Assembly (NCBI RefSeq): GCF_000377645.1
Contig: NZ_KB898492.1
Location: 1-49,493, forward strand
DNA: 49,493 nucleotides
Reading direction: 5' to 3'
DNA from: Thiomonas sp. FB-6
GTDB taxonomy: Bacteria > Pseudomonadota > Gammaproteobacteria > Burkholderiales > Burkholderiaceae_C
Part shown: positions 6,690-34,930 of the stretch, in pieces
How the letters are laid out: each line of letters starts with the position of its first letter
How positions within the stretch are numbered: the first letter of the stretch is position 1
Notes under the pieces: model-generated
The model's input: the letters and a program-made list of their open reading frames with translations, nothing else
The model's database searches: none
Told to the model about the DNA's origin: nothing
Program-made: the position numbers and the translations under genes

Positions 6690-6719
6690 ACTTACGCGGC
6701 GGACGAGCAATCGGATTCA
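6690..6719 (-). promoter_or_regulatory. Predicted ECF-type promoter of the ferritin-like/sigma unit
   Basis: Read on the minus strand, TGAATCCG (6719-6712) is followed after exactly 15 nt by CGTAAGT (6696-6690), about 67 nt before the ferritin-like start codon. The -35/-10 layout is typical of ECF sigma promoters with a CGT -10. The same -35 octamer, spacing and CGTA core recur at 28888-28916. Autoregulation by the adjacent sigma gene is the simplest reading. Confidence 0.65.
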
Positions 6720-6853
6720 AACGCCTGTCACGCGGCCGGCGCATGCTGCGCGGCGGGAGGATTCGCGCTGCCCGACGCCACGCTCGACACCCGTCTGGGC
6801 GCCGCCTTGCGCCTGGCGCGGCCGCGATCGACCTGAGCGCGCTGCGCGTCGGC

Positions 6854-7561
6854 TCAGCGCTCCGGCAGGTCGAACACCAGCACTTCGGCGCCTTCGCCGT
6901 GGCGCAGCTGCAGGGTGTCGGCGTGGCGCAGCATCAGCGCGTCGCCCGCGCGCAGTTCGACGGCGTTGGCGTGCAGCGAGCCGCGCACCAGGTGCACGTA
7001 GGCGCGGCGCGCCGGGTCCAGGCTCAGCTCGGCGTGTTCGCCGCCGTCGAACAGCCCGGCGTACAGGCTGGCGTCCTGGTGCATGCGCAGCGCACCATCG
7101 CGGCCCTGGCCGTCGACGATGCGGCACAGGCGTCCGCGCCGCGCGTCCGGCGCGAAATGTTTCTGTTCGTATCCCGGAGCGATGCCGGTGGACCGCGGCT
7201 GGATCCAGATCTGCAGGAAATGCACGGCCTGGGTGCGCGAGGGATTGAATTCGCTGTGCTGCACCCCGGTGCCGGCGCTCATGCGCTGCACGTCGCCCGG
7301 GCGCAGCGTGGATCCGTTGCCCAGCGAGTCCTGGTGCGCGAGTTCGCCTTCGAGCACGTAGCTGATGATCTCCATGTCTCGGTGCCCGTGCTCGCCGAAA
7401 CCTGCGCCGGGCTGTACCCGGTCCTCGTTGATCACCCGCAGCGGGCCGAACTCGATGTGGTTCGGGTCGTAGTAGGACGCGAAACTGAAGCTGTGGAAGG
7501 ATTCCAGCCAGCCGTGGTTGGCGTGGCCTCGTTGTTCAGACCTGCGAATCTGCTGCAGCAT
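6854..7561 (-). CDS. Pirin family protein (quercetin 2,3-dioxygenase-like bicupin)
   Basis: The 235-residue protein matches the YhhW/pirin layout. The N-terminal cupin has HGWLESFHSFSFASYYDP, then GFGEHGHRDMEIISYVLEGE with the metal-binding His cluster, then GTGVQHSEFN carrying a further histidine. A smaller C-terminal cupin follows (AYVHLVRGSL). Family members bind iron and some oxidise quercetin; the natural substrate here is unknown. It is divergent from ovoA across 110 bp. The preceding 230 bp (6624-6853) hold the ferritin-like promoter and otherwise nothing recognisable. Confidence 0.9.
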   Translation of the reverse strand: MLQQIRRSEQRGHANHGWLESFHSFSFASYYDPNHIEFGPLRVINEDRVQPGAGFGEHGHRDMEIISYVLEGELAHQDSLGNGSTLRPGDVQRMSAGTGVQHSEFNPSRTQAVHFLQIWIQPRSTGIAPGYEQKHFAPDARRGRLCRIVDGQGRDGALRMHQDASLYAGLFDGGEHAELSLDPARRAYVHLVRGSLHANAVELRAGDALMLRHADTLQLRHGEGAEVLVFDLPER

Positions 7562-7589
7562 GGTGTCAGGGACGGTGATGTTCTGTCGA

Positions 7590-7618
7590 CGAATCCAGCA
7601 TACGGGAACGTACGTACT
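7590..7618 (+). promoter_or_regulatory. Weak ECF-type promoter candidate upstream of ovoA
   Basis: CGAATCCA (7590-7597) is followed after exactly 15 nt by CGTACT (7613-7618). This differs at two of eight -35 positions from the TGAATCCG element seen at the other two sites but keeps the spacing and CGTA core. It lies about 54 nt before the first ovoA ATG. The -10 overlaps a GTACGTAC palindrome. The call depends on the other two sites being real. Confidence 0.4.
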
Positions 7619-7671
7619 CGTTTCGGACGCCGCGCACGCGGCGGCGTCAACTGAACAATAATCGAAATCCC

Positions 7672-9834
7672 ATGCGGAAATCCCAAGAAGGCCCCGCGGG
7701 GCCGCAGACGAGGCCCGTCCCGATGTGTCATTCCGTTGCGTTGCGCAGCATCGCGCTAGCCGATCCCGATCCCCAGCGCCTGCGCGAGCGGGTGCTGGCC
7801 GACTTCCACGCCAGCTTCGACCGCTACGAGAGCCTGTTCGAGGTGTTGCAGGGGGAGCAGGCCTTCACGGTCAAGCCGATCGCGCTGCGCCACCCGCTGA
7901 TCTTCTATCTCGGCCACACGGCGACTTTTTTCATCAACAAGCTGGTGCTCGCCGGCGTGCTGCAGCAGCGCATCGATCCGCGCCTGGAGTCGATGTTCGC
8001 GGTGGGCGTGGACGAGATGAGCTGGGACGACCTGGACGAGGCGCATTACGACTGGCCCTCGGCGGCGCAGGTGCGCGCCTACCGCGACCGCGTGCGCCAG
8101 ACCGTGGACCGGCTGATCCGCGAGTTGCCGATCAGCTCGCCGATCGCCTGGGACAGCCCCTGGTGGGTGATCCTGATGGGCATCGAGCACGAGCGCATCC
8201 ACCTGGAGACCTCCTCGGTGCTGATCCGCCAGCATCGCCTGGAGTTCGTGCGTCCGCATCCGCACTGGCAGCCCTGTCCGGAGCGCGGCGAGCCGCCCGC
8301 CAATGAACTGGTGCCGGTGGCCGCGGCCAGCTTGCGCCTGGGCCGCGACCGCGCCGACCCGGGCTATTACGGCTGGGACAACGAATTCGGCGAGCACGTG
8401 GCGAATACCGCTGCCTTCCAGGCCGCGCGCCATCTGGTGAGCAACCGGGAATTCCTGGGATTCGTGCAGGCCGGGGGCTACGCCGACGATGCCCTGTGGA
8501 GCGAGGAGGGCGCGGCCTGGAAGGCCTTCGCGCGGGCCGAGCACCCGAGCTTCTGGCTGCGCGAGGGCGCGCACTGGAAGCTGCGCCTGATGTGCGAGGT
8601 GGTGGACATGCCGTGGAACTGGCCGGTGGAGACCAATTTCCACGAGGCGCAGGCCTTTTGCAACTGGAAGGCACGGCGCGACGGACTGCCGGTGCGCCTG
8701 CCCAGCGAGGACGAATGGCACGCGCTGCGCCGCGCCGCCGGCATCGGCGACGGGCCGCAGCCGCGCCCGGCTGCGGCGAACTTCGAACTCGACCACTGGG
8801 CCTCCTCCTGCCCGGTGGACCGCTTCGCCCATGGCCCGTTCTTCGACGCCGTGGGCAATGTGTGGCAGTGGCTGGACACGCCGACCTACCCCTTCCCGGG
8901 TTTCCAGGTGCATCCGATCTACGACGACTTCACCACGCCCACTTTCGATGAACGCCACAATCTGATCAAGGGCGGGTCGTGGGTGTCCTGCGGAAACCAG
9001 GCGCTGCCGGTGTCGCGCTATGCCTTCCGCCGGCACTTTTTCCAACATGCCGGGTTCCGCTACGTGGTGGGCGAGCGCCCGGCGCCGCCGGAGGGCTCGA
9101 TGTACGAGACCGATGCGCTTGTTTCGCAGTACTGCGAGTTCCATTGGGGGGCCGAGCCCTTCGGCGTGCCGAACTTCCCGCGCGCGCTGGCCGAGATCGC
9201 GGTGCGCGCGATGCAGGGTCGGCCGATGCGCCGCGCCCTCGACCTGGGCTGCGCGACGGGGCGCGCCAGCTTCGCGCTGGCGCGGCATTTCGAGCATGTC
9301 GTGGGCATCGACTTCTCGGCCCGTTTCATCGGCGTGGGCACGCAGCTGGCCGAGCAGGGACGCATCCGCTACCAGCTTCCCGACGAGGGCGAGCTGGTGT
9401 CCTACCACGAGCGCAGCCTGCGCGAGTACGCGCTGCAGGACCTGGCCGGCAAGGTGGAGTTCGTGCAGGGCGATGCCTGCAACCTCAAGGCCACGGTTCG
9501 CGACTTCGATCTCGTGCTCGCGGCCAACCTGATCGACCGGCTCTACAGCCCGGCGCTGTTCCTGCGCGAGGTGCACCGGCGCATCGTCAGCGGGGGCATG
9601 CTGGTGATCACCTCGCCGTATACATGGCTGGAGGAGCACACGCGGCGCGAGGAGTGGATCGGAGGCTTCAAGAAGGACGGCGAGAACTTCAGCACCCTGG
9701 ACGGGCTGGAGCAGATGCTGGGCGAGCATTTCGAGCGCGTGGGCGAGCCGCTGCAAGTGCCCTTCGTGATTCGCGAGACGCGGCGCAAGTTCCAGCACAC
9801 GGTTTCCGAGCTCACGGTCTGGCGCCGCCGCTGA
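7672..9834 (+). CDS. ovoA: 5-histidylcysteine sulfoxide synthase / methyltransferase OvoA (ovothiol biosynthesis)
   Basis: OvoA is a non-haem iron enzyme that joins cysteine to C5 of histidine with O2; its C-terminal domain later N-methylates the thiohistidine to ovothiol A. The 720-residue protein has three parts. A DinB-like N-terminal domain holds HERIHLE, the HX3HXE iron ligands. A formylglycine-generating-enzyme-like middle domain has VSNREFLGFV, VRLPSEDEWHALRR and IKGGSWVSCGN. A SAM-dependent methyltransferase follows (ALDLGCATGRASFALA). The first ATG (7672) adds a short N-terminal extension; ATG 7723 would already include the conserved start. Neither has a clear Shine-Dalgarno. Ovothiol is a thiol antioxidant, which fits the msr, katG and sulfur genes nearby. 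Confidence 0.93.
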   Translation: MRKSQEGPAGPQTRPVPMCHSVALRSIALADPDPQRLRERVLADFHASFDRYESLFEVLQGEQAFTVKPIALRHPLIFYLGHTATFFINKLVLAGVLQQRIDPRLESMFAVGVDEMSWDDLDEAHYDWPSAAQVRAYRDRVRQTVDRLIRELPISSPIAWDSPWWVILMGIEHERIHLETSSVLIRQHRLEFVRPHPHWQPCPERGEPPANELVPVAAASLRLGRDRADPGYYGWDNEFGEHVANTAAFQAARHLVSNREFLGFVQAGGYADDALWSEEGAAWKAFARAEHPSFWLREGAHWKLRLMCEVVDMPWNWPVETNFHEAQAFCNWKARRDGLPVRLPSEDEWHALRRAAGIGDGPQPRPAAANFELDHWASSCPVDRFAHGPFFDAVGNVWQWLDTPTYPFPGFQVHPIYDDFTTPTFDERHNLIKGGSWVSCGNQALPVSRYAFRRHFFQHAGFRYVVGERPAPPEGSMYETDALVSQYCEFHWGAEPFGVPNFPRALAEIAVRAMQGRPMRRALDLGCATGRASFALARHFEHVVGIDFSARFIGVGTQLAEQGRIRYQLPDEGELVSYHERSLREYALQDLAGKVEFVQGDACNLKATVRDFDLVLAANLIDRLYSPALFLREVHRRIVSGGMLVITSPYTWLEEHTRREEWIGGFKKDGENFSTLDGLEQMLGEHFERVGEPLQVPFVIRETRRKFQHTVSELTVWRRR

Positions 9835-9918
9835 GGCGGCATGCGGGAGGCGGCGCCGGGGGGAGGCGGCGGCGGCGAATTCGTACACTGTGGCCGCCGC
9901 AGCCCCCCACGTCGCCGG

Positions 9919-10656
9919 ATGAAGCACCTGCTCGAAAACCTGTTCTCGGAACGCCACCGCCTGACCGCGCGACGGCGCGCCATGGCGGTGCTGCACGAGG
10001 TCTGCCGCAATCACGAGAGGCTGAACCTGTTCGCCGACGGCGCGCCGCGCGAGATGCCGTCCATCCTGCTGGATGTGGACGAGGACGCCGGCACCGTGGT
10101 GTTCGACATCCCGCCGCAGGTGGAGGGGGTGGAGTGGGATCAGCGCGATCCGGTGCTGGCGGTAGCGCGCTACGAAGGCGTGTTCGTCGGTTTCGAGCTG
10201 GACGACATCGAGCCCGTGGCCTGGAACGGGGCGCAGGCCTTGCAGGCGACGCTGCCGCCGCGGGTGTACTACCTGCAGCGGCGCCAGTATTTCCGGGTTC
10301 CGGTGGCCAGCGGCGACGTCAGCGCCGTGGTGCTGGTGCGCCAGGGCGCGGCGGCGGTCAACGCCCGCTGCCATGACCTGAGCGCCGGAGGCATGCGCGT
10401 ACTGGTCGCCCCGGTGAGCGGAGATTTCCCGCTGCGTGCCGGCGAACTCCTGCAGGAGCTGCGCTTCCAGCTCAAGGGCACCGCGCTGCAGACGGCGGCG
10501 CGCATCCAGCACGTGGACCAGCCCGTGCAGCTGCCCAACGGCAAGAGCCTGGTGCCGCTGGGCCTGGAGTTCTGCGACAAGAGCTTCGCCTTCGACCAGG
10601 CGGTGGTTCGCTACGTGCAGCAGCGCGACCGCGACCTGCTCAGCGGCCGGGCCTGA
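9919..10656 (+). CDS. PilZ-domain c-di-GMP receptor, YcgR-like
   Basis: The 245-residue protein has a YcgR-type N-terminal domain (about 1-115) followed by a PilZ domain. The c-di-GMP motifs are present: RQYFR fits RxxxR at about residue 120, and DLSAGGMR fits DxSxxG. YcgR-like proteins slow flagellar motors or control adhesion when c-di-GMP is high; the partner here is unknown. It lies upstream of a GGDEF-EAL protein in the same direction, so the two may form a local signalling module. No clear ribosome-binding site precedes the ATG; the start is placed at the conserved N-terminus. Confidence 0.87.
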   Translation: MKHLLENLFSERHRLTARRRAMAVLHEVCRNHERLNLFADGAPREMPSILLDVDEDAGTVVFDIPPQVEGVEWDQRDPVLAVARYEGVFVGFELDDIEPVAWNGAQALQATLPPRVYYLQRRQYFRVPVASGDVSAVVLVRQGAAAVNARCHDLSAGGMRVLVAPVSGDFPLRAGELLQELRFQLKGTALQTAARIQHVDQPVQLPNGKSLVPLGLEFCDKSFAFDQAVVRYVQQRDRDLLSGRA

Positions 10657-10904
10657 CGGGTCCATCCCCGCAGCGACCTGGCCTGTGGGGAAATTGTCAT
10701 AAGCCGCGGGCAATTTGGCCCCTTCGGGGTGTTCCCCCGGCCGCCGGCGCGCCGATTCACGGCACAATCACGGCACAATCATGTCCTTTGACCACCGGGC
10801 CCCTTGCGCAGGGGCGCAGGGCGGCGCTCCGGCGGAGCGGCCGCCGCAGCGCGGGGCCCGCAGATCCACGAAGGTCCGCATTCCAGGTGTTCCAGCGCCC
10901 GCCG
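10657..10904 (+). promoter_or_regulatory. Intergenic leader of the GGDEF-EAL gene
   Basis: This 248-bp gap holds a short hairpin, CCCC-TTC-GGGG, near 10721-10731 and a tandem direct repeat CACGGCACAAT just before 10780. A further hairpin (GCTCC-GGC-GGAGC) lies near 10827-10839. An open frame from 10788 could add 39 Arg/Ala-rich residues to the next protein, but these have no recognisable domain. The CACAAT copies could contribute to a -10 element. No RNA gene is visible. Confidence 0.35.
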
Positions 10905-13900
10905 ATGTCTTCCGAGCCCTCCCGACAACGCCAGTGGCTTGAATTCGCCACCTCCATCCTGCGCGAACTGGTGGCGGGGCATGCGCCTTCGGCGCTCGCG
11001 CAGCGCCTGTGCCGGCTGGCCGAGAGCCAGGCGCCGGGGCGCGTGGCCAGCATCATGGTGCTGGGCGAGGACCGCTGCCTGTACGTCTACGCGGCTCCTG
11101 GCGCGCCGCCGGCGCTGCTGGCCGAGCTCGAGGGGCTGCGCCCCGGGCAGGGCAGCGGCTCCTGCGGCAACGCCGCGCTGGCGGAGGAGCCGGTGCTGGT
11201 CGACGACATCGCCTCCGACACGCGCTGGGAGGACCTGCGCGCCTCGGCGCAGCGCTTCAACCTGGGCTCCTGCCATTCCTATCCCGTCTGGCACGAGGGC
11301 GAACTCATTGGCACCTTCGCGCTGACCGCCACCGCCTCGGGGCCGGCGGCCGCCGAGGAACTGGAACTGCTGGAGTTCGCGGCCACCATGGCCGGCACGC
11401 TGCTGGGCTTCGAGCGCCTGCGCCGGCGCGGCGAGCGCGAGCAGGCGGTGCACGCGGCCATGCTGGACAACGCACTCGTGGGCATGGCCCTGCTGCAGGG
11501 GCGCATCATCCGCGCCGCCAACGCCACGCTGGCCCAGATGCTCGGCCATGCCGACGCGAGCGAGCTGGTCGGGCGCGGCGTGGACGAGCTCTACGCCGCC
11601 TCGGGCGACTTCAAGCGCTGGCGCCAGCAACTGGAAGGGCCGCTGCGAGACTCCGGGCAGGCGCGCGCGGAGCTCTGCGTGCGACGGCTCGACGGCGAGA
11701 CGGCCTGGTGGGAGATCGCCGGCCGCCGGGTCGAGCACGACCATGGGGATTTCGATTCGGTCTGGTCGGCGGTGGACATCACGCAGCGCCGCCAGGCGCA
11801 GGAACGCCTGCGCTGGCAGGCACGCCACGATGCGCTGACGCAGTTGCCCAACCGCTACGGGCTGGACCATTTCCTGCAGCGTGAACTCGAACAGGTGGCG
11901 CAGGAAGGCGCGCGCCTGGCGCTGGGCTGGCTGGACCTGGACGATTTCGCCGGGGTCAACGAACGCTGGGGCCACCTGGTGGGCGACGCCGTGCTGCGCC
12001 AGGTGGCGCAGCGCCTGAGCGGGGCGCTGGGTCCGCGCGACCTGCTGGCGCGCATCGGCGGCGACGAGTTCGTGCTGGTGCTCAACCACGTCGAGGGGCC
12101 GGAGCAACTGGCGCGGCGCCTGCAGCCCTTCGAGCAGGCCATGCAGGCCGAGTTCGGCACCGGCTCGTCGGCGCTGCGCCTGGGCATGAGCCTGGGCCTG
12201 GCCATGTTCCCCGACGACGAGACCAGCGTGGACGGGCTGTTGCGCCAGGCCGACGCCGCGCTGCTGAGCTGCAAGATGCGCAAGGCCGAGCGCGACAACT
12301 GGTGGCTGCGCTGGGGCGAGCCCATGCGCGGGGAGCTTTCCGCGCTGGGGGCCGCGCGCACCCCGCAGGCCTACGGGGAGGCCGCCGGACAGCTGCTGGC
12401 GGAGGCGCGCTCGCAGGGCCTGAGCCTGGACGATGCGCTGCTGCAGGCCTATTTCGGGCGCCTGCACGAGGACGCGCAGACAGCCGCCGCGCTGAACGCG
12501 CTGGACGGGGACACCCGCGCGAGGCTGCGCGAGCGCGAGACCGCGCAACTGCGCGCGCTGCTCGAGCCGGGCGCCGCCGAGCATGAACGCGGCGACACGG
12601 CGCTGCGCGCCGGGCGCAGGCACGCGCTGGTGGGCGTGGCTTCGGCCGCGCTGACCCGCGCCCTGTTCGGGCTGCACCACGAGCTGGCCGAGCGCATCGG
12701 CCAGCTTTCCATGCACAGCCTGCGCCGCCTGCAGTTGCTGGACGTGCTGGCGCAGCGGGTGAGCCGGGAGTTGCAGCAGCGCATCCTGGGAGCCGACGAG
12801 GTCACGCGCGCCTACCGCGAGTGGGCCACGCAGGCCCTGGGCGATCTGGAGCGCTTCGGCGTGTGGGCGGACTTCGTCGGCCACGTCGGGCGCGCGCTGG
12901 AGGGGCTTCCGGGCATCGCGGGTGTGGCGCTGGCGCGTCCGCGCGAGGACGGCCGCTTCGTGTTCGAGTACCACAGCCAGGCCCTGCAGGCGCTGGTGGA
13001 CGTGGGGGCCGAGGTCAGCGGCGACGGCACCCTGGCGCGTTGCTGGATGCAGGGCCGGGTGCAGATGACCGTGGTGCATGCGCTGGATCCGACGGTGGCG
13101 CGCTGGCACGCCGCCGCGGCGGCGGCCGGGGTGCGCAGCAGCGCGGCCATTCCGGTGCTGGACGCACACGGCCGCCCGGTGGCCGTGGTGTCGCTGTTCG
13201 CGCGCAACCCGGGGCAGTTCGGGCCCCAGGCGGTGGGGCCGTGGCTGGACACCGTGATGCAGATCTTCCGCCAGGCCTGGGCCCGTTTCGAGGCCGCCGC
13301 GCTGACGGTGCCGATGTCCGGCGCGGCGATGGCGCGCTCGCGCGAACTGATCGGCGCGCAGAAGGTGTGCATGCTGTACCAGCCCATCATCGACCTGTGC
13401 GACGGCAGCTGTACCAAGGTGGAGGCGCTGGCGCGCCTGAGCGACGGCGAGCGCCTGCGCACTCCCGACGAATTCCTGCCCGCCTGCGGCAGCGTGGAGC
13501 TGGGCCAGCTGTTCAGCCAGGGCCTCGGCCAGGTGCTGCGCCAGCTGGGCGAATGGGAACGCGAGGGCCTGGTGCTCGACGCGTCCATCAACCTGCCTCC
13601 CAGCGTGCTGCGCCAGCGCGACCTGTGCACGGTGGTGGAGCGGGCGCTGGTGGCGCACGGCATCGAGCCCGCGCGCCTGACCTTCGAGCTGCTGGAGACC
13701 GAGCAGTGGATCGGCGACTCCAGCATCGACCGCACGGTGCAGGCGCTGAAGGACCTGGGTACGCGCATGGCCATGGACGACATGGGCGCAGGCCATTCCA
13801 CGCTGCTGCGCCTGCGCCAGCTGCAGTTCGACCTGGTCAAGATCGACCGCGGCCTGGTGCGCGACATGCCCTCCAATCCGCAGGCGGTGGCGGCCATCGT

Positions 13901-14114
13901 CGGCGGCCTCACCGAACTGATGCACCGCCTCGGCCTGGCCGTGGTGGTGGAGGGCCTGGAGACTCCCGAACTGGTGCGCCTGGCCACCGAGCTCGGCGCC
14001 GACGCCGGCCAGGGCTACGCCATCGCCCGCCCGCTGGCGCCGCGCCAGGCGCTGCAGTGGTTCCTGGCGCGCCGCGCCTCCGAGGGGCGCCGCGAGGCGG
14101 AACCGGCCTTATAA
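10905..14114 (+). CDS. Multi-sensor diguanylate cyclase/phosphodiesterase: GAF-PAS-GGDEF-globin-like-GAF-EAL
   Basis: This 1069-residue soluble protein would make and/or break c-di-GMP. Domains in order are: GAF (about 10-165, GSGSCGNAALAEEPVLVDDI); PAS (about 185-300); GGDEF (about 305-465) with intact RIGGDEF at about 383-389; a helical domain (about 470-640) with AGRRHALVGV at about 570, resembling the proximal-His F-helix motif of globin-coupled sensors; a second GAF (about 640-785); and EAL (about 805-1060). The EAL motif VEALARL, INLPP, ELLETE, DDMGAGHS, VKIDRGL and VVEGLET are all present, so both enzymatic domains may be active. ATG 10905 is preferred over 10788, whose 39-residue extension is low-complexity. 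It follows a PilZ receptor gene. Confidence 0.9.
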   Translation: MSSEPSRQRQWLEFATSILRELVAGHAPSALAQRLCRLAESQAPGRVASIMVLGEDRCLYVYAAPGAPPALLAELEGLRPGQGSGSCGNAALAEEPVLVDDIASDTRWEDLRASAQRFNLGSCHSYPVWHEGELIGTFALTATASGPAAAEELELLEFAATMAGTLLGFERLRRRGEREQAVHAAMLDNALVGMALLQGRIIRAANATLAQMLGHADASELVGRGVDELYAASGDFKRWRQQLEGPLRDSGQARAELCVRRLDGETAWWEIAGRRVEHDHGDFDSVWSAVDITQRRQAQERLRWQARHDALTQLPNRYGLDHFLQRELEQVAQEGARLALGWLDLDDFAGVNERWGHLVGDAVLRQVAQRLSGALGPRDLLARIGGDEFVLVLNHVEGPEQLARRLQPFEQAMQAEFGTGSSALRLGMSLGLAMFPDDETSVDGLLRQADAALLSCKMRKAERDNWWLRWGEPMRGELSALGAARTPQAYGEAAGQLLAEARSQGLSLDDALLQAYFGRLHEDAQTAAALNALDGDTRARLRERETAQLRALLEPGAAEHERGDTALRAGRRHALVGVASAALTRALFGLHHELAERIGQLSMHSLRRLQLLDVLAQRVSRELQQRILGADEVTRAYREWATQALGDLERFGVWADFVGHVGRALEGLPGIAGVALARPREDGRFVFEYHSQALQALVDVGAEVSGDGTLARCWMQGRVQMTVVHALDPTVARWHAAAAAAGVRSSAAIPVLDAHGRPVAVVSLFARNPGQFGPQAVGPWLDTVMQIFRQAWARFEAAALTVPMSGAAMARSRELIGAQKVCMLYQPIIDLCDGSCTKVEALARLSDGERLRTPDEFLPACGSVELGQLFSQGLGQVLRQLGEWEREGLVLDASINLPPSVLRQRDLCTVVERALVAHGIEPARLTFELLETEQWIGDSSIDRTVQALKDLGTRMAMDDMGAGHSTLLRLRQLQFDLVKIDRGLVRDMPSNPQAVAAIVGGLTELMHRLGLAVVVEGLETPELVRLATELGADAGQGYAIARPLAPRQALQWFLARRASEGRREAEPAL

Positions 14115-14230
14115 CCGGCGCGTCTAACGGTATCACGACACGGTAGTTGGGATCGAGGGGGGGCCTGCCTAGCATGCAGGCTGTGTCGAACCCTGCACGC
14201 GCGCCGCGGCGACGTGCGAACCCCCGCCCC
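14115..14230 (+). promoter_or_regulatory. Leader of the sulfate-assimilation operon
   Basis: The 116-bp gap before cysI contains an inverted repeat, GCCTGC (14163-14168) and GCAGGC (14176-14181), around a 7-nt loop, preceded by an A/T-containing stretch (TAACGGTATCACGACACGGTA). This is the expected place for a CysB-controlled promoter, but CysB sites are too degenerate to assign by eye. No riboswitch is recognisable. Confidence 0.4.
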
Positions 14231-16461: not shown

Positions 16462-16538
16462 GCGCCGTGCACGGCCGCTCCGAAGCGGCGCTCCACTCCC
16501 TCGGGGAGTCGAGCGTAGCGAGGAGGGTCGTCCAGTGA
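16458..16538 (+). CDS. Possible 26-codon ORF bridging DUF934 and cysH
   Basis: An ATG overlapping the DUF934 stop (ATGA at 16458) opens a 26-codon frame that ends at TGA 16536-16538, which itself overlaps the cysH GTG start (GTGA). The peptide begins MSAV, the same first four residues as CysH, then diverges through the hairpin region. It is probably a by-product of a small insertion rather than a functional protein. It could still pass ribosomes from DUF934 to cysH by stepwise termination-reinitiation. Confidence 0.25.
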   Translation: MSAVHGRSEAALHSLGESSVARRVVQ

Positions 16539-20368: not shown

Positions 20369-20409
20369 GCGCGCTTCGCCGGCGGCGGCCCCGCCGTGGC
20401 GCGGACGGC

Positions 20410-21411: not shown

Positions 21412-21436
21412 CGTCGCCTCCCCCTCGTGCGGGACG

Positions 21437-22117
21437 CTAGCGGCCGCGTCGGCCGAACAGGCCGGCGAACCAGGACTTGAGCAGGGCCCACAGGATGGCC
21501 AGGCCGTTGAGCTCGCCGGCCGAGGCCCGCGGTGCGGAGCCCGGCGCGGACGCGGAGGGCGGGGCGCCGGGCGGCGCGGCGCCCGCGGCAGCGGTCGCGG
21601 GAGTTGCGGGGGTTGCAGCGGATGCCGGCGCCGCCGCCGAGGCCTCCGAGGCCGCCGCCAGTTGCTGCGCCGCCTTCTGGAAGTTGGCGACGAACTGGCC
21701 CAGCAGCAGCTCCGAGACCTGCACCATCATGCGGGAGCCGAACTGCGCGAACTTGCCAGTGACCTCCACCCGCGCCTGGCCGTGCAGTGTCGATTGGCCC
21801 GGGGCGTCGGCGCTGGGCTCGAGCACCGCGTGCAGTTCCATGGACGCGGAGGAGCCGCCCTTGTCGGCCCCCTTGCCGCGCAGGGCCAGGCGGCGCGCGC
21901 CCGGGTCGAGTTCGAGCACGTCCACGGTGCCGCCGAACTGGGCCTGCGCAGGGCCCACCTTCACCTTCATCAGACCCTGGTAGCTGGTGTCCGAGTTCTG
22001 CTCGGTGATCTGCGCACCCGGCATGCAGCCGGCCACCGCGCGGATGTCGCTGAGCAGGCCCCATGCGCGCTCGGGGTCCACCTGCAGGGGGTAACGCTTG
22101 TCGATGGTGACTTCCAT
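21437..22117 (-). CDS. coxG: CoxG-like SRPBCC protein (CO dehydrogenase subunit G family)
   Basis: The 226-residue protein has an SRPBCC/CoxG domain in its first 150 residues (PLQVDPERAWGLLSDI, VAGCMPGAQI, YQGLMKVKVGPAQAQFGGTV). An Ala/Pro-rich linker and a hydrophobic C-terminal tail (LAILWALLKSWFAGLFG) follow. CoxG proteins anchor molybdenum hydroxylases to the membrane, and this tail would do so. The start at ATG 22117 begins at the domain edge (MEVTIDKRYPLQV); longer frames add no conserved sequence. It precedes xdhC, so the two probably serve the same molybdoenzyme. No coxMSL genes are present. Confidence 0.83.
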   Translation of the reverse strand: MEVTIDKRYPLQVDPERAWGLLSDIRAVAGCMPGAQITEQNSDTSYQGLMKVKVGPAQAQFGGTVDVLELDPGARRLALRGKGADKGGSSASMELHAVLEPSADAPGQSTLHGQARVEVTGKFAQFGSRMMVQVSELLLGQFVANFQKAAQQLAAASEASAAAPASAATPATPATAAAGAAPPGAPPSASAPGSAPRASAGELNGLAILWALLKSWFAGLFGRRGR

Positions 22118-22292
22118 GATCGTTTCGGAACCGGAAAGTGGGCGCCGTCGAGGGCCGGCAGGGCCCGCGGCGCGCGGACAACACGCGATGACGGGCCCAA
22201 GATTACCTGCCCGGGAGCAAGTGTGCATCGGATCCGTCGATTTCGCAGCCTGCTAGGCTACTCATCGCCCGCGAAACCGGAGGAGAACAAGA

Positions 22293-23591
22293 ATGAGTCT
22301 GCAATCCCTGTTCAAGCTGGGGGAGCACGGAACCGACGTGCGCACCGAGGTCATGGCCGGCGTGACGACCTTCCTGACCATGTCGTACATCATCTTCGTC
22401 AACCCGTCGATCCTGTCCACGACGGGGATGGACCACAACGCCGTGTTCGTCGCGACCTGCCTGGCGGCGGCGCTGGGCACCTTCATCATGGCCTTCGTCG
22501 CCAACTGGCCCGTCGGCCTGGCGCCGGGCATGGGGCTCAACGCCTTCTTCGCCTTCACCGTGGTCAAGGGCATGGGCTTCACCTGGGAGCAGGCGCTGGG
22601 CGCGGTGTTCATCTCGGGCTGCGTGTTCGTCGCGCTGACCATCACCGGGGTGCGACGCTGGCTGGTGGAGGGCATCCCGAAGTCCCTGCGCAGCGCCATC
22701 GCCGCCGGCATCGGCATGTTCCTGGCCATCATCGCGCTGTCGGGCGCGGGCATCGTCGTGGCCAACCCGGCCACCAAGGTCGGGCTGGGCGACCTGCACA
22801 GCCTGCCGGTGCTGCTGGCGGCGCTGGGATTCCTGCTGATCGCCGTGCTGGACTACTTCCGGCTGCGCGGGGCGATCCTCATCGGCATCCTCGCCGTGAC
22901 CGCGGCCAGCATGCTGCTGGGCCTGACCCACTTCCAGGGCATCGTGTCGGCCCCGCCGAGCATTTCCCCGACCCTGTTCAGGCTGGACATCCCCGGGGCG
23001 CTGCGCGGGGGCTTTTTCCACATCATCCTGGTGTTCGTGCTGGTGGAGATCTTCGACGCCACCGGCACCCTGACCGGGCTGGCGCGCAAGGCCGGCCTGC
23101 TCGACGGCGGGCGCGAGGAAGGCCTGGGCAGGGCGCTGTTCGCCGACAGCCTGGCGATCTTCTCCGGTTCGCTGCTGGGCACCAGTAGCACCACCGCCTA
23201 CATCGAGAGCGCCTCGGGCGTGCAGGCGGGCGGGCGCACGGGCCTGACCGCGCTGACCGTGGGCGTGCTGTTCCTGGCCGCGCTGTTCTTCGCCCCGCTG
23301 GCCGCCGTGGTGCCGCCCTGGGCCACGGCGCCGGCCTTGCTGTACGTGGCCGGGCTGATGATGCGCGAACTGCTGGAAATCGACTGGAGCGACGTCACCG
23401 AGGCGGTGCCCTCGGCGCTGGCCGCGCTGGTCATGCCCTTCACCTACTCGATCGCCAACGGCCTGGCCTTCGGCTTCATCGCCTATGCGGCGCTCAAGCT
23501 GTTCACCGGGCGCGCGCGCGAGGTGCACCCGGCGCTGTGGGTGGTGGCGGCGCTGTTCGTGCTGCGTTTCGTGCTGTTCCCTGCCGATTGA
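22293..23591 (+). CDS. azgA: NCS2-family purine permease, AzgA/PbuG type
   Basis: The 432-residue protein has about 12-14 membrane segments and AzgA hallmarks: TEVMAGVTTFLTMSYIIFVNP near the start, GLAPGMGLNAFFAF, and FDATGTLTGLARKAGL before GTSSTTAYIESASGV. The family takes up hypoxanthine, guanine or adenine by proton symport. The start has a strong GGAGGAG ribosome-binding site. Guanine deaminase follows with a four-base overlap, so guanine uptake and deamination are coupled. No purine riboswitch is recognisable in the 175 bp upstream; a -10-like TAGGCT lies near 22253. Confidence 0.93.
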   Translation: MSLQSLFKLGEHGTDVRTEVMAGVTTFLTMSYIIFVNPSILSTTGMDHNAVFVATCLAAALGTFIMAFVANWPVGLAPGMGLNAFFAFTVVKGMGFTWEQALGAVFISGCVFVALTITGVRRWLVEGIPKSLRSAIAAGIGMFLAIIALSGAGIVVANPATKVGLGDLHSLPVLLAALGFLLIAVLDYFRLRGAILIGILAVTAASMLLGLTHFQGIVSAPPSISPTLFRLDIPGALRGGFFHIILVFVLVEIFDATGTLTGLARKAGLLDGGREEGLGRALFADSLAIFSGSLLGTSSTTAYIESASGVQAGGRTGLTALTVGVLFLAALFFAPLAAVVPPWATAPALLYVAGLMMRELLEIDWSDVTEAVPSALAALVMPFTYSIANGLAFGFIAYAALKLFTGRAREVHPALWVVAALFVLRFVLFPAD

Positions 23592-24952
23592 GTCCGCGCG
23601 AAGCCTCCGCCCCTGCGATCGCGCCCGCGGCCGCGCCGGGGCGTGAGCGCGTCGCCTTGCGCGGCGACGTGCTTCACCTGCGCGCCGACCCCGGCGCGGC
23701 GGCCGAGGCGCCGCCTTGCGTCCATTTCGAGCCCGACGGCTGGCTGTTGGCCGAGGGCGGGCGCGTCGTGGAGCTGCGAGCGGCGGATGCGCCTCCCGAC
23801 CCGAGCTGGCCCCGCGAGGACTGGCGCGGGCACCTGCTGTTGCCCGGCTTCATCGACCTGCACGTGCACGCGCCGCAGCTCGACGTGATCGGCGCCTGGG
23901 GCGACGGGCTGCTGCGCTGGCTGGACGACTTCACCTACCCGGCCGAGGCGCGCTGGGCGGATGCGGAACACGCCCGCCGCGGGGCCGGGCGCTTCGTGCG
24001 CCAGTTGCTGGCGCACGGCACCACCAGCGCGATGGTCTTCCCCACCGTGCATCGCCACGGCGTCGACGCCCTGTTCGAGGCCGCGCGGGAGCAGGGCATG
24101 TGCCTGGTCAGCGGCAAGGTGCTGATGGACCGCAACGTCCCCGAGGCCCTGCGCGACGAGGTGACGCAGGCCGAGCGCGACTGCGTGGCGCTGATCGAAT
24201 CCTGGCACGGACGCGAGCGCCTGCGCTACGCGCTGACCCCGCGCTTCGCGCCGGCCTGCAGCGACGAGCAGCTGCGCATGTGCGCGCGCCTGCTGCGCAT
24301 CGAGCATCCCCGCGCCGGCGCGCCCTACCTGCAGACCCATGTGGCGGAGAACCGCGACGAGCTGCGCTGGGTGCGCGAGCTGTACCCGGCCAGCCGCAGC
24401 TACCTGGACGTATACGCCGGCTTCGGGCTGCTGGGCCGGCGCAGCGTGCTGGCGCACGGCATCTGGCTGGACGACGCCGACCGCGCCCTGCTCGCCGAGC
24501 GCGGCAGCACGCTGGCCTTCTCGCCGTCGTCCAACCTGTTCCTGGGCAGCGGCCTGTTCGACTGGGCGCGCGCCGACGCCGCCGGCGTGCGCGTGGCCGT
24601 GGCCAGCGACGTGGGGGCGGGCACCAGCCTGTGCCAGCTGCGCAGCGCGGCCGAGGCCTGCAAGGTGCTGGCGCTGCAGGGTACGCGCCTGAGCGCCTGG
24701 CGCGCCTTGTACGCGCTCACCCGCGGCGCCGCCGCGGCGCTGGAACTCGAGCCGGAGCTCGGGCATTTCGAGCCCGGTGCCTGGGCCGACGTGGTGGCCT
24801 GGCGCTGGGCCGCCGGCGAACTGCAGGAACACCGCCTGGGGCTCGCGCGCAGCCTGCACGAACGCCTGTACGCCTGGCTTCACATGGCCGACGAGCGCAA
24901 CGTGGCCGCTGTGTACGTGGCCGGCCGGCGGGTTCAGCACAGGCCGTCGTAG
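23588..24952 (+). CDS. guaD: Guanine deaminase
   Basis: It deaminates guanine to xanthine and ammonia in purine salvage and catabolism. The roughly 454-residue protein is an amidohydrolase with the metal-binding motif GFIDLHVHAPQLD. Also present are HGTTSAMVFPTVH, THVAENRDEL, AHGIWLDD, SPSSNLFLGSG and VASDVGAGTS, all in family order. The start is uncertain: TTG 23588 overlaps the azgA stop (TTGA) and gives a sensible N-terminus, while ATG 23537 would overlap azgA by 55 bp. The pairing with azgA and with xdhC opposite predicts a guanine to xanthine to urate route. Confidence 0.9.
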   Translation: MSPREASAPAIAPAAAPGRERVALRGDVLHLRADPGAAAEAPPCVHFEPDGWLLAEGGRVVELRAADAPPDPSWPREDWRGHLLLPGFIDLHVHAPQLDVIGAWGDGLLRWLDDFTYPAEARWADAEHARRGAGRFVRQLLAHGTTSAMVFPTVHRHGVDALFEAAREQGMCLVSGKVLMDRNVPEALRDEVTQAERDCVALIESWHGRERLRYALTPRFAPACSDEQLRMCARLLRIEHPRAGAPYLQTHVAENRDELRWVRELYPASRSYLDVYAGFGLLGRRSVLAHGIWLDDADRALLAERGSTLAFSPSSNLFLGSGLFDWARADAAGVRVAVASDVGAGTSLCQLRSAAEACKVLALQGTRLSAWRALYALTRGAAAALELEPELGHFEPGAWADVVAWRWAAGELQEHRLGLARSLHERLYAWLHMADERNVAAVYVAGRRVQHRPS

Positions 24953-25209
24953 CGCGCCAGCGCCGACAGGCTCAGGATCAGCGCGCGCCCGGGCTGCAGC
25001 CCCCAGCCCTGCGCGGCGGCGAGCAGCAGCGCCGCCGCGATCGCCTGCACGGCCATGCTGAGCATCTGGTAGGCCCCGGTGAGCGCCACGCGCGCCAGCC
25101 AGAAACGCGTGAAGCCGGGGATGCGCCAGACCGAGCGCTCGGGGGAGGCGGAGGATCCCGGAGCGGCAGGGGAGACGGGCGAGGTGGGCGGCAAGGGAGC
25201 GGGGGCCAT
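24934..25209 (-). pseudogene. Short MFS-like remnant or small membrane protein
   Basis: The 91-codon frame has a Pro/Ser-rich start, then WRIPGFTRFWLARVALTGAYQMLSMAVQ. This resembles the first helix of many MFS exporters (FRRFW.AR..S.LAYQML..AV). It runs straight into a second hydrophobic stretch, AIAAALLLAAAQGWGL, and ends 30 residues later, far short of a 400-residue transporter. The stop overlaps the guaD 3' end in convergent orientation. A decayed or internally deleted MFS gene is the best reading. A genuine two-helix small protein cannot be excluded. Confidence 0.45.
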
Positions 25210-25346
25210 CGTTCGCGGCCGGGCGAGGCCCTCATTGTGGGGGGGAACGGCCGGCCCTGCAGCGTGCCGCGCGGGCGCCCGGCCGGCCGGGCCTATGCTG
25301 TGGGCTGCGCGGCCATGCGCGGCCGCCTTCGCACCCTTCCTTGCGC

Positions 25347-25754
25347 ATGAGCCAGCCCGCAGACCGCGAATCCCCAAGCCCCGCGACCCCGGTCGCGGCG
25401 GACCCGGCCCCCGTGGCGCGCTTCCGGCTGCGCCTGACCCAGGGCGCGCGCATCGCCGTCGGGCCCGGGCGCATCGAACTGCTGGAAGCGGTGCGCGACG
25501 CGGGCTCGATCACCGCGGCCGCGCGCAGCCTGGACATGTCCTACCGGCGCGCGTGGATGCTGCTCGACGAGCTCAACCGCTGCCTGCGCGCCCCGGTGGT
25601 GGAGTCGGTGCATGGCGGCGCGCAGGGCGGCGGCAGCCGCCTGACCGAGACCGGGCTGGAACTGGTGCGCCTGTACCGGCGCATCGAGCACACCGCGGCG
25701 CGCGCCTGCCGCGGCGACATCGACGCGCTGACCGCCCTGCTGGGTACGCGCTAG
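25347..25754 (+). CDS. ModE-type N-terminal winged-helix regulator
   Basis: The 135-residue protein corresponds to the DNA-binding domain of ModE alone: ALLEAVRDAGSITAAARSLDMSYRRAW in variant form (here ELLEAVRDAGSITAA), then MLLDELNR and GGGSRLTETGLELV. The molybdate-binding TOBE/MOP domains are missing, as in many short ModE/MopB-like proteins. It probably regulates molybdate or molybdoenzyme genes, which fits xdhC and coxG nearby. ATG 25347 is preferred over a TTG two codons earlier; neither has a clear ribosome-binding site. Its 3' end overlaps the convergent GGDEF-EAL gene by four bases. Confidence 0.85.
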   Translation: MSQPADRESPSPATPVAADPAPVARFRLRLTQGARIAVGPGRIELLEAVRDAGSITAAARSLDMSYRRAWMLLDELNRCLRAPVVESVHGGAQGGGSRLTETGLELVRLYRRIEHTAARACRGDIDALTALLGTR

Positions 25755-27847
25755 GAGCCCGGATCCGCGGGGGCCGGGCGCGCGCGGTCCTCCACCACCC
25801 ATTGGGTGGCGGCTTGCACGTCCAGCGGGCGCGCATACAGGTAGCCCTGCGCGAATTCGCAGCCGATGTCGCGCACGCGGGCCAGTTCCTCCTCCGTCTC
25901 GACGCCCTCGGCGATGACGCCGATGCCCAGGCGATGCGACATCGCGACGATGGCCTCGCAGATCGCGTGCTTGCGCGTATCGCCGGGGAGCTTGCGCACC
26001 AGCGACTGGTCGATCTTCAGGTAGTCCACCTCCACGCGGCTGAGCGAGGCGAGGTTGGAATGGCCGGTGCCGAAGTCGTCCACCGCGATCTGCAGGCCCC
26101 GCGCGCGCAGCTCCCGCAGGCGCTGCGCGATGCGCGGGGATTCGTCGAGGATCACCGTCTCCGTCACCTCCATCACCAGGCGCTGCGGCGCCAGCCCGAT
26201 GCGTTCGAGGTAGTCGACCCAGCCCTGCGTGGGGTCGAGCTCGGCGGCCAGTTGCACCGGCGAGACGTTGAAGCTGATCTGCGGCCCGCCGCCATCCGGC
26301 GCCCGCCAGCGCAGCGCCTGCTGCGCCGCGCTGCGGAACACCCACTCGCCGAGTTCCACGATCAGCCCGCTTTCCTCGGCCAGCGCGATGAAGCGCGCCG
26401 GCGGCACCACGCCGAAGGCCGGGTGCCTCCAGCGCAGCAGGGCCTCGAACTTGGCCAGCGTGCGGTCGGCGATGCTCACCACCGGCTGGTACAGCAGGAA
26501 CATCTCGCCCAATTGCGAGGCGCGGCGCAGGTCGCCGGCCAGCACCAGGCGCCCGCGCGCGCGCTGATCCATCGGCGTCTCGTAGGCCACGGTGCGGTTG
26601 CGGCCGCCGTGCTTGGCCTCGTACATGGCCAGATCGGCGCAGCGCAACAGATCCTCCGGGCCGGCCGCGTCGTGGGGAAACACCGAGAAGCCGACGCTGG
26701 CGGAAATGTGCACCGCGTGGCCCTGGATCTCGAAGGGGGCCGCCAGCGCATCGAGCAGCTTGGCGCCGACCCGGCGTGCCGTTTGCGCATCGGCCGGGGC
26801 CGGCAGCAGCGCGCTGAACTCGTCGCCGCCCAGGCGGGCCAGCACGTCGGAGGCGCGCAGCACCGAGCGCATGCGCTCGGACACCAAGCTCAGAAGGGCA
26901 TCGCCGGCCTCGTGCCCCAGCGAGTCGTTGACCGCCTTGAAATGGTCCAGATCCACGTACAGCAGCGCGAAGGCGATGCGGTCGCGTTGCGCGCGCTGCA
27001 CGTCCAGGCGCAGCCGCTGGCCGAAGGCATGGCGATTGGGAAGCCCGGTCAGCGCGTCCTGGTTGGCCTGGCGCCAGATGGTCTGCGCGGCCCGGATGCG
27101 CTCGCCGATGTCGCGCGCGATCTTGGAGGCGCCGACGATGCGCCCGGCCCCGTCGCGCAGCGGCGAGATGGTCACCGACACGTTCACCAGATGGCCGTCC
27201 CGGTGCACGCGCACGGTCTCGAAGTGCTCCACGCGCTCGCCGGCGGCGATGCGCTGCAGGATCGTCTCCTCCTCGTGCACGCGCTCCACCGGGATCAGCT
27301 TGGTGATCGGCTCGCCGATCATCTCGGCCGCGCTGAAGCCGAAGATGCGCTGCGCGCCCGGGTTCCAGCTCAGCACGATGCCGCCCAGGGTCTTGGTGAT
27401 GATGGCGTCGTCGGTGGACTCGACCAGGGACTCGTAGACGTTGATCGGCTGTACCCTGGTCCCCGGCCCCTGCGCCTGCGACAGGGCCTGGCGCAGCGGA
27501 TGCACGGTGACCAGCGTGCCCACCGCGCCCATCCGGGGATCGTGCAGCGGGCGCCGGGTCACCAGCGCCGAGATCAGCGTGCCGGCCGCGTCGCGCAGCA
27601 GCGCCGGGCAACTCAGGGCCTGCGCGGCATCGGACTCCCGGCCCAGCAGCGGTGGCGGGTTGTGCTGCACCAGCAGCGCGTCGATCGGCTGCCCCAGCGC
27701 CTGCCCCGGCGAATGCCCGAACAGAAGCTCCGCGGCGCGATTCCAGCTGCTGACCAGGCCGTCCGGCGTGAGGCTGACCATCGCGTCGTCATGCGATGCG
27801 ACGATGGCCTCGAACAGACAGGCGCGGCCTCGTGGTTGCACGTCCAT
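25751..27847 (-). CDS. PAS-PAS-GGDEF-EAL bifunctional c-di-GMP enzyme
   Basis: The 698-residue protein has two PAS domains (about 10-125 and 140-255), the second with SLVESTDDAIITKTLGGIV and SWNPGAQRIFGFSAAEMIG. A GGDEF domain follows with intact RLGGDEF at about 337-343, then an EAL domain with KFEALLRW at about 465. The EAL catalytic set FNVSP, EVTETV, DDFGTGHS, YLKIDQSL and AEGVETEEE is complete, so both cyclase and phosphodiesterase activity are possible. It has no membrane segment. The start at 27847 has CGGGAGC about 9 nt upstream; longer frames add only Arg/Ala-rich sequence. Cofactor and signal are unknown. Confidence 0.93.
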   Translation of the reverse strand: MDVQPRGRACLFEAIVASHDDAMVSLTPDGLVSSWNRAAELLFGHSPGQALGQPIDALLVQHNPPPLLGRESDAAQALSCPALLRDAAGTLISALVTRRPLHDPRMGAVGTLVTVHPLRQALSQAQGPGTRVQPINVYESLVESTDDAIITKTLGGIVLSWNPGAQRIFGFSAAEMIGEPITKLIPVERVHEEETILQRIAAGERVEHFETVRVHRDGHLVNVSVTISPLRDGAGRIVGASKIARDIGERIRAAQTIWRQANQDALTGLPNRHAFGQRLRLDVQRAQRDRIAFALLYVDLDHFKAVNDSLGHEAGDALLSLVSERMRSVLRASDVLARLGGDEFSALLPAPADAQTARRVGAKLLDALAAPFEIQGHAVHISASVGFSVFPHDAAGPEDLLRCADLAMYEAKHGGRNRTVAYETPMDQRARGRLVLAGDLRRASQLGEMFLLYQPVVSIADRTLAKFEALLRWRHPAFGVVPPARFIALAEESGLIVELGEWVFRSAAQQALRWRAPDGGGPQISFNVSPVQLAAELDPTQGWVDYLERIGLAPQRLVMEVTETVILDESPRIAQRLRELRARGLQIAVDDFGTGHSNLASLSRVEVDYLKIDQSLVRKLPGDTRKHAICEAIVAMSHRLGIGVIAEGVETEEELARVRDIGCEFAQGYLYARPLDVQAATQWVVEDRARPAPADPGS

Positions 27848-27903
27848 GGCACGAAGCTCCCGTTCCGTGGCGCGGTGATGCGCTGTGCCCAGGATACCCG
27901 CAA

Positions 27904-28704
27904 TCAAGCGCGCCGGGATACCCCGCGCAGCAAGTTGACGGCCCCGCCGCCCGAGGCGAAGGCCACGTGGCCCAGCACCGCGGCGCCCAGGGCGCCCAGC
28001 ATGGCCACGCCGTAGGCGGCGGCCATGCCGCCACGCTGCAGCCACAGCGCCACCACCAGGTTGAAGGTGGCGGCCCCCAGGCAACCGACGATGATGCCCC
28101 GCAGCAGCGCGCGCGCCGCCTCGGGGCCGGCCTGCCGGTGGGTGAAGCCTCCCATGGTCGCCGACAGCACGGGCAGCGCCGCCAGCAGGCCGCTCCAGGT
28201 GGGGCCCAGGTGCAGCGAGGCCGCGGTGATGCCCAGCACCACGGCGAGCGCGAAGGCCATGCGCGCCGGCAGATCCCACCAGGGGTGCGCCGTCTGCAGG
28301 ATCGGGCCCTGCCGGCCTGCCAGCAGGGCCAGCGCCACCAGCGCGGGGAACACCATCGCGGCGGCCATGACGGGTCGTTGCGGCAGGTGCGCCAGCAGCA
28401 CGAACAAGGCGCCGCTGGCCAGGCTGGCCAGCATCAGCGCCGGCGCCCAGCGGCGCCCGCGCGCGGCCCGCGCATAGGTGGCGCAGAAGCCGGCCGTGCC
28501 GGTCAGGCCCAGCAGCGTGCCCACGGCGGCGTGGGATGCGAAGTCCGCTCCGTTCTGCACGGCCAGGAACACCGAGAGCGGCGCCGACGTCAGCGGCAGC
28601 CCGGTCAGCAGCCCGCCGATGGATCCCCCGAAGCGCCGTTGCAGCAGGGTCGCGCCCAGGACCAGCAGCGGCGTGACGGCGATCTTGAACAGCAGCAGGC
28701 TCAT
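27904..28704 (-). CDS. Membrane protein with internal duplication, function unknown
   Basis: The 266-residue protein has about eight membrane helices and two related halves. SIGGLLTGLPLTSAPLSVFL (about 28-47) aligns with TWSGLLAALPVLSATMGGFT in the second half. In each case an acidic/Ala stretch and another helix follow (GTLLGLTGTAGFCATYA against GIIVGCLGAATFNLVVA). I do not recognise a named family with confidence; GlpM-like small membrane proteins are a distant possibility. It is divergent from the lipid-modification operon across 253 bp that carry two symmetric operator-like elements, so co-regulation is plausible. Confidence 0.7.
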   Translation of the reverse strand: MSLLLFKIAVTPLLVLGATLLQRRFGGSIGGLLTGLPLTSAPLSVFLAVQNGADFASHAAVGTLLGLTGTAGFCATYARAARGRRWAPALMLASLASGALFVLLAHLPQRPVMAAAMVFPALVALALLAGRQGPILQTAHPWWDLPARMAFALAVVLGITAASLHLGPTWSGLLAALPVLSATMGGFTHRQAGPEAARALLRGIIVGCLGAATFNLVVALWLQRGGMAAAYGVAMLGALGAAVLGHVAFASGGGAVNLLRGVSRRA

Positions 28705-28775
28705 GGTGAACCCGCAGTCTAGGCCTTCGTGGGCCGGGCGGCGCGAGGCGCGCGATTCATCTGCGCCGCAAGTCG

Positions 28776-28851
28776 GCATGCTGTCCATGACAAAGCTGGT
28801 AGATTTGCCTGAATCATGGCGGACGTCCATAACTGTCTTGGACAAACATGC
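28776..28851. repeat. Pair of inverted operator-like elements (TGTC[A/T]TGGACA)
   Basis: The plus strand has TGTCTTGGACAAACATGC at 28834-28851. The minus strand has TGTCATGGACAGCATGC at 28792-28776. The 11-nt cores differ at one base, each core is itself symmetric (TGTC-N3-GACA), and the flank CATGC is shared with a 1-nt offset. Core centres are about 52 bp apart, close to five helical turns. They lie upstream of the predicted ECF promoter. Confidence 0.6.
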
Positions 28852-28887
28852 GACAATGGCGCCGATCGGAACCTCCGTACCGAAACC

Positions 28888-28916
28888 TGAATCCGTTGCG
28901 GCGCGCGCAGCGTAGC
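28888..28916 (+). promoter_or_regulatory. Predicted ECF-type promoter of the lipid-modification operon
   Basis: TGAATCCG (28888-28895), exactly 15 nt, then CGTAGC (28911-28916), about 41 nt before the FAD-oxidoreductase start. The -35 octamer, spacing and CGTA core are identical to the element in front of the ferritin-like/ECF-sigma unit. The same octamer also occurs inside this operon near 30065, but there it has no CGTA at the right distance. Confidence 0.65.
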
Positions 28917-30334: not shown

Positions 30335-30368
30335 GCGCGTGCCGCAGGCTCCGCGACGGGGAGGGGCG

Positions 30369-32413: not shown

Positions 32414-32429
32414 GGCGCCGGCGCGGCGC

Positions 32430-34905: not shown

Positions 34906-34930
34906 GGGCCTGGCCCTGTCCGGAGTACCC

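Follow-up and report, generated by a model that had tools for sequence, protein, structure and literature searches.

Known systems and the locus in Thiomonas sp. FB-6

In Rhodobacter sphaeroides, the core regulon of the extracytoplasmic function (ECF) sigma factor sigmaE and its anti-sigma factor ChrR (group ECF11) is described as containing genes for a flavin adenine dinucleotide (FAD) oxidoreductase (RSP_1091), a DUF1365 protein (RSP_1090) and cfa-type enzymes (PMC5507510, PMC6852236). The first two, named UfaD (RSP1091) and UfaO (RSP1090, DUF1365), are reported to form methylated furan fatty acids together with the methylase UfaM (PMC7380195). Here we describe a stretch of 49,493 nucleotides from Thiomonas sp. 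FB-6 (contig NZ_KB898492.1), referred to as a whole as the window, which carries a putative lipid operon that likewise includes FAD, DUF1365 and cfa-type genes and, elsewhere, a unit encoding a ferritin-like protein, an ECF sigma factor of SigK type and an RskA-type anti-sigma factor. An earlier model-made interpretation, the sequence-only reading, had likened this output to that of sigmaE/ChrR regulons, and the gene content bears it out. Both units are preceded by the motif TGAATCC-N16-CGTA, and the comparative sequence evidence makes it very probable that a single RskA-restrained, SigK-type sigma factor reads both sites as promoters and would so drive its own unit and the lipid operon.

The closest promoter described is that of Pseudomonas syringae PSPTO_1043/1042, given as TGATCC-N16-CGTA (PMC5507510). 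The CGTA element and the 16-base spacer are common to both, whereas the -35 element TGATCC becomes TGAATCC here, with one inserted A. The anti-sigma factor is described as ChrR in the R. sphaeroides and P. syringae systems and is of RskA type in the window. For the regulatory pair itself, the nearest counterpart is SigK-RskA of Mycobacterium tuberculosis (ECF18/19 group), which provides the closest solved sigma factor, with matching cysteines and an adjacent RskA (PMC7509140); the outputs reported for mycobacterial SigK are mpt70 and mpt83, in contrast to the furan-lipid operon considered here. The wiring has its nearest known precedent in Rhodobacter capsulatus, where a SigK/RskA-like pair stands in the RpoE/ChrR role: RCAP_rcc00699/00698 is described as resembling SigK/RskA more than it does the RpoE/ChrR of R. 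sphaeroides, as induced by singlet oxygen and as adjoining a glutathione peroxidase (GPx) gene (PMC7074977). According to the same source, and unlike the case here, R. capsulatus is without homologues of the RSP_1087-1091 lipid operon.

Light regulation of LitR/CarH type relies on a B12-domain MerR protein (PMC9758184, PMC12705666), the kind to which the candidate second regulator considered below also belongs. Genes reported as light-induced through class II LitR of Pseudomonas include those for UfaM and FolE, and the effector described for the Streptomyces LitR-LitS system is an ECF sigma factor, LitS (PMC9758184, PMC12705666). In a search of the open-licence literature, we found no RskA-type system tied to a furan-lipid operon, and TGAATCC-N16-CGTA was not given there as an ECF promoter.

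The motif in the window and in its genome

The window spans the whole of contig C22, one of the 79 contigs that make up a genome of 4.2 Mb (G000 in our numbering), and has a G+C content of 71.6%. As the sequence-only reading had stated, TGAATCCG-N15-CGTA matches exactly twice in the window, with 0 mismatches and in promoter position, at sites 22 kb apart (Table 1). The motif ends 69 bases before the start codon of the ferritin-like gene (ATG at 6623) and 43 bases before that of the FAD gene (ATG at 28958), in agreement with the distance of at most about 70 base pairs proposed earlier. In shuffled sequence, 0.00 exact matches were expected and 0 of 100 shuffles reached two (none had a match), a figure that overstates significance because the 12 bases were selected after both sites had been compared; the weight is therefore placed on comparative tests. 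The claim of twelve fixed bases stands for both window sites, where the match is exact, and fails in relatives, in which the eighth base (G) is either G or A; TGAATCC-N16-CGTA was accordingly adopted as the working motif.

The same genome contains a third exact 12-base site, at G000:C6:38103-38129(-), which an HD-GYP gene follows at a distance of 53 bases. A fourth match, to the 11-base form, lies on contig C59 without a convincing downstream gene and was taken as chance. Among sigma-type genes with a PF08281 match elsewhere in the genome, none is located at an exact site.

Conservation across the genus and link to the sigma gene

Scanning 28 genomes of the genus for exact TGAATCC-N16-CGTA returned 49 matches in 21 genomes, compared with 1 for a reversed-pattern control. 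By hand assignment, 18 matches lie at ferritin/sigma units, 14 at the lipid operon (12 genomes), and 7 at the HD-GYP gene (6 genomes); a DUF3034 locus accounts for 3 more and a hydrolase gene for 2, and 5 are single; 44 of the 49 thus fall at recurring sites, and the random spread named earlier as a possible refutation was not observed. Single matches in G018, G021 (two) and G022 were taken as chance.

The sigma gene is present in 24 of the 28 genomes (E <= 1e-30), and exact matches occur in 21 of these 24, with G018, G021 and G022 having merely single ones. No exact match was found in the four genomes that lack the sigma gene (G008, G017, G020 and G026), two of which, G020 and G026, are only 81-82% complete. 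Before the ferritin/sigma unit, the motif is exact in 18 of the sigma-bearing genomes and carries one mismatch in 4 (G003, G018, G021 and G022), where the mismatch test covered 16 of the 24 genomes and the remainder were read from the alignment and the exact scan. The G004 site, on contig C206 and not on the sigma contig, was assigned by identity to relatives. The region is cut by a contig end in G006, and G012 has no site; the G012 sigma factor is the most divergent in the genus, and no ferritin match was found beside its gene. Autoregulation of the sigma unit, as previously suggested, thus holds at the level of motif conservation.

In the seven genomes of the window clade, all 11 ECF core columns before the lipid operon are invariant; of the 106 remaining non-coding columns free of gaps, 19 are. 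As these genomes are close relatives, the Fisher value for this contrast is not to be taken at face value. Both sites also occur on one contig, approximately 23-28 kb apart, in G002, G007, G009 and G019. A site precedes the first lipid gene even though that gene differs between lineages, being the FAD gene in the window clade, GPx in G003, G006, G021 and G022, and folE2 in G005 and G016. In the last two genomes, the operon is split into a folE2 unit and a GPx-cfa unit, and a site stands before each part. When each lipid upstream region was shuffled 300 times by letter, at most 2 of 300 shuffles were as good as the real region for 13 genomes and 5 to 11 of 300 for 4, with gene starts extrapolated from tblastn alignments. 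The lipid test omitted G008, whose contig starts inside the FAD gene, and G014 and G026, which have no FAD match; 5 of its 30 regions had been added because the scan had shown them, and without these a site with at most one mismatch is kept in 13 of 25 genomes. The prediction that orthologous promoters would retain the motif is therefore borne out in most genomes and not in all, 8 of the 25 tested having no site (at least 3 mismatches) before the first gene of the lipid operon.

Additionally, a profile (R1) built from 13 ferritin promoters only was run on the 28 genomes. Its ranks 1-18 were all ferritin promoters (13 being the training set), and 11 of the 12 matches after rank 18 were lipid-operon or HD-GYP sites; the weak E-values given by this profile are attributed to its flanks, which are specific to ferritin promoters. 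Conservation and co-occurrence with the sigma gene together support, at the sequence level, the shared ECF promoter first proposed from the window.

Identity of the sigma and anti-sigma factors

Among solved structures, the best match of the sigma factor is SigK (4nqw, 86.9 bits, E 1.6e-23), compared with 51.1 bits for Rhodobacter RpoE (2q1z); the NCBIfam SigK model ranks third of 87 and falls below its cut-off. The cysteine pair C133/C183 of SigK is matched in the alignment by Cys128 and Cys178, which are invariant in 12 aligned sequences. In SigK, the oxidation state of this pair is reported to affect RskA binding (PMC7509140). The product of the adjoining gene, whose start overlaps the sigma stop codon, scores 73.7 bits against PF10099 (cut-off 29.4) and shows one strongly hydrophobic stretch (residues 102-120). 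It contains 0 cysteines in 246 amino acids, as the sequence-only reading had noted in describing a cysteine-free, RskA-type partner; one or two cysteines are present in 7 of 19 matched stretches of RskA relatives.

SigK-like loci and lipid operons beyond the genus

Among the best 80 loci retrieved with the sigma factor, to which the counts of SigK-like loci below refer, the closest species-named relative is that of Thiomonas bhubaneswarensis (58% identity), where a ferritin/sigma/RskA unit likewise carries the motif, and both cysteines of the SigK-type pair are present in 68 of the 80 named loci. The exact motif was found within 400 bases upstream of SigK-like genes (34-39% identity) in 21 of 33 betaproteobacterial and 0 of 47 other loci. 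The betaproteobacterial label was assigned from record titles, which in four cases give just Proteobacteria, and the 33 include at least one locus from the genus itself (L151). The sigma gene's own orientation is shared by 14 of these 21 matches, and elsewhere in the 33 loci 15 matches occur in 360,610 bases. This recurrence upstream of distant SigK/RskA relatives argues that the motif belongs with the SigK-type sigma family. Genes following such sites include DUF3034 and DUF4331 genes and, in L187 and L210, genes whose products are 50-53% identical to the window ferritin and which lie near SigK/RskA loci with a motif copy of their own. No Ferritin_2 match was found in the L219 fragment.

Use of the motif on the lipid operon is nearly confined to the genus. 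The comparison set comprised 60 of 66 matches from outside the window's own genome, four of them shortened by contig ends; two of its three SigK-type motif matches lie inside merR or folE2 coding sequence and were rejected, and the third, in G148, stands 186 bases before the aligned FAD start. An ECF11-type motif upstream of the FAD gene was seen in 1 of the 60, about 4.5 kb away, and was set aside. In 6 of 28 actinobacterial loci (L176, L190, L208, L212, L216 and L224), a SigK-like gene is located near a cfa-cfa-DUF1365-FAD cluster. These clusters recall LitS, and a link between ECF factors and furan lipids may have arisen more than once.

Evidence against a shared promoter and alternative explanations

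Several observations weigh against reading both sites as promoters of one sigma factor. With up to two mismatches allowed, the window is unremarkable (3 matches, 1.62 expected). Six of the eight genomes without a lipid site do have the sigma gene (G012, G013, G015, G018, G023 and G025), and the G010 lipid site is weak. In G001, G011 and G024, the exact lipid site is internal, between folE2 and the FAD gene, and we read the TGA of this motif as doubling as the folE2 stop codon. CGTT replaces CGTA at both the ferritin and the lipid promoters in G003, G021 and G022, yet in G001 and G024 the two promoters differ, with CGTT upstream of GPx and CGTA at the ferritin gene, which reduces the shared change to weak evidence of co-evolution. 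Profile R1, whose scoring was limited to 150 first-look candidates in each genome, missed the lipid site of the window itself (E <= 1), G000 yielding the ferritin site alone. Upstream of lipid genes outside the genus, the motif was found in just 3 of 60 regions, 2 of them within coding sequence. Furthermore, the genus genomes share descent, so that counts across them are not independent.

The alternative that survives best places the lipid operon under a LitR-type MerR protein and a sigma70 promoter at a TGTC-N3-GACA box, leaving the ECF-like site inert or minor. This box, TGTCTTGGACAAACATGCGACAATG, is invariant at 23 of 25 columns in the seven window-clade genomes, and similar boxes stand before folE2 or GPx in several other genus lineages. 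Of the 28 genus genomes, 27 encode a B12-domain MerR (in the window's own genome at G000:C7:71883-72788, where the product shares 54% identity with a protein of G023 that matches PF13411 and PF02310), and a homologue lies divergently upstream of the FAD gene in 28 of the 60 genomes outside the genus. Both the MerR gene and the lipid operon are kept in G017 and G020, where the sigma gene is absent. The ECF core, however, is just as invariant in the same seven genomes, and exact sites are missing from all four sigma-less genomes; control by MerR with an inert or minor ECF site is therefore judged unlikely. The two inputs can coexist, and we think that both operate, a LitR-type MerR being the probable second input and the box its candidate operator. 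The box differs from the LitR site described for P. mendocina, TGTACA-N12-TGTACA (PMC9758184).

Reading of the lipid promoter by a different ECF factor, for example of RpoE/ChrR (ECF11) type, would fit the single A that separates the -35 element from that of PSPTO_1043 and the presence of the same enzymes in the related core regulon (PMC5507510). The ChrR model TIGR02451 was above its cut-off in 0 of the 28 genus genomes, with weak matches, to the cupin part only, in 21. The candidate in the window's genome (G000:C1:285340-285963, PF12973) was rejected, as it carries two cupin domains and the search with PF08281 gave nothing within 25 kb of it. Since the other sigma-type genes of this genome are not at exact sites either, we consider a different ECF factor very unlikely. 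Finally, coincidence in a GC-rich genome has a negligible chance of explaining the two matches: the 12 bases were chosen post hoc, the third exact match overlaps the end of a coding gene and 5 of the 49 genus matches look random, but the sites are conserved, stand in front of units of differing gene order and co-occur with the sigma gene, all of which speaks against it.

HD-GYP gene and other candidate targets

For the HD-GYP gene (G000:C6:36691-38049), 27 orthologous regions were compared. In 12 of them, from 11 genomes, a site with at most one mismatch starts 72-93 bases before the gene, and every one of the seven window-clade genomes is among these; the other 15 regions have at least 3 mismatches. 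The site coincides with the end of the gene before it, and in G005 and G016:C96 its TGA closes that gene's frame. Its position relative to the end of this gene varies between genomes, which argues against mere coding constraint. The site in G016:C181 is identical to that of G010, and this contig may represent contamination.

DUF3034 genes follow the motif in G001 and G011. In G014, a DUF3034 copy (L106) keeps the ECF site and the gene start, and its frame closes after 21 codons. The HD-GYP target, the second box, the sigma cysteine pair and the motif at betaproteobacterial SigK/RskA loci are additions to the sequence-only reading.

Gene units and their neighbourhood

The features of the window are listed in Table 1. 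The ferritin-like/sigma/RskA unit extends on the minus strand from 6623 to 4640, and the putative lipid operon, of seven genes, on the plus strand from 28958 to 35692. PF02353, PF01593 and PF07103 occur in one gene run, giving a gene set of UfaM/UfaD/UfaO type, and family assignment suggests that the operon encodes furan fatty acid enzymes of UfaD/UfaO type. The N-terminus of the ferritin-like protein, RRDWFKRGG, was read as twin-arginine-like.

Table 1. Positions of the promoter sites, the conserved box and the predicted genes in the window.
Feature	Position	Strand	Basis
Candidate ECF promoter TGAATCC-N16-CGTA, ferritin/sigma/RskA unit	6693..6719	-	exact match; conserved in the genus
Candidate ECF promoter TGAATCC-N16-CGTA, lipid operon	28888..28914	+	exact match; core invariant in 7 genomes
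Conserved box TGTCTTGGACAAACATGCGACAATG (TGTCYWGG... in relatives; TGTC-N3-GACA)	28834..28858	+	upstream of ECF site; candidate LitR-type MerR operator
Ferritin_2-domain protein, 192 amino acids	6045..6623	-	PF13668, E 1.2e-32
ECF sigma factor, SigK type, 184 amino acids	5380..5934	-	family and structure matches
RskA-type anti-sigma factor, 246 amino acids	4640..5380	-	PF10099, E 2.3e-20
FAD oxidoreductase (amine-oxidase family), UfaD-like	28958..30334	+	PF01593, E 5.8e-20; role as described in PMC7380195
DUF1365 protein, UfaO-like	30369..31142	+	PF07103, E 6.7e-78
CMAS-type methyltransferase, UfaM-like by family only	31139..32413	+	PF02353, E 5.8e-79
Chalcone isomerase-like protein	32430..32999	+	PF16036, E 1.9e-10
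MFS_2 transporter	32996..34348	+	PF13347, E 2.8e-39
DUF3833 protein	34348..34905	+	PF12915, E 6.5e-64
Short-chain dehydrogenase, final gene of the putative operon	34931..35692	+	PF00106, E 4.8e-36

The ferritin unit adjoins a pirin gene (6854-7561) and a gene for the ovothiol synthase OvoA with both domains (7672-9834, plus strand; TIGR04344 652 bits, TIGR04345 348 bits), forming an antioxidant neighbourhood. The region after ovoA (9841-14114, plus strand) gave a weak match to YcgR and encodes a GGDEF/EAL protein. Together with the HD-GYP target, these genes hint at links to cyclic di-GMP.

Proposed regulation and implications

From these features we infer the following sequence of events. The membrane-bound RskA would keep the SigK-type sigma factor (5380-5934) inactive until an envelope or oxidative signal leads to its release. 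The freed sigma factor would then transcribe its own ferritin-like/sigma/RskA unit, providing positive feedback, as well as the UfaD/UfaO/CMAS operon, the product of which is probably methylated furan fatty acids, membrane lipids that would react with peroxides or singlet oxygen. In some members of the genus, the HD-GYP gene would be a further target of this sigma factor. The TGTC-N3-GACA box (28834), just upstream of the ECF site, would provide a probable second input through the LitR-type, B12-domain MerR encoded at G000:C7.

It seems fairly likely that TGAATCC-N16-CGTA is a general promoter of betaproteobacterial SigK/RskA systems and that one lineage put the furan operon, which elsewhere belongs to ECF11/ChrR or a B12-domain MerR, under SigK/RskA, joining envelope stress, light and cyclic di-GMP turnover at one membrane-lipid output. 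The analysis supplies a promoter motif and testable candidate targets for a widespread, little-studied betaproteobacterial sigma family. It also suggests that the furan-lipid response is reachable via different sigma/anti-sigma pairs, with promoters one inserted base apart, and offers a useful case of regulon rewiring.

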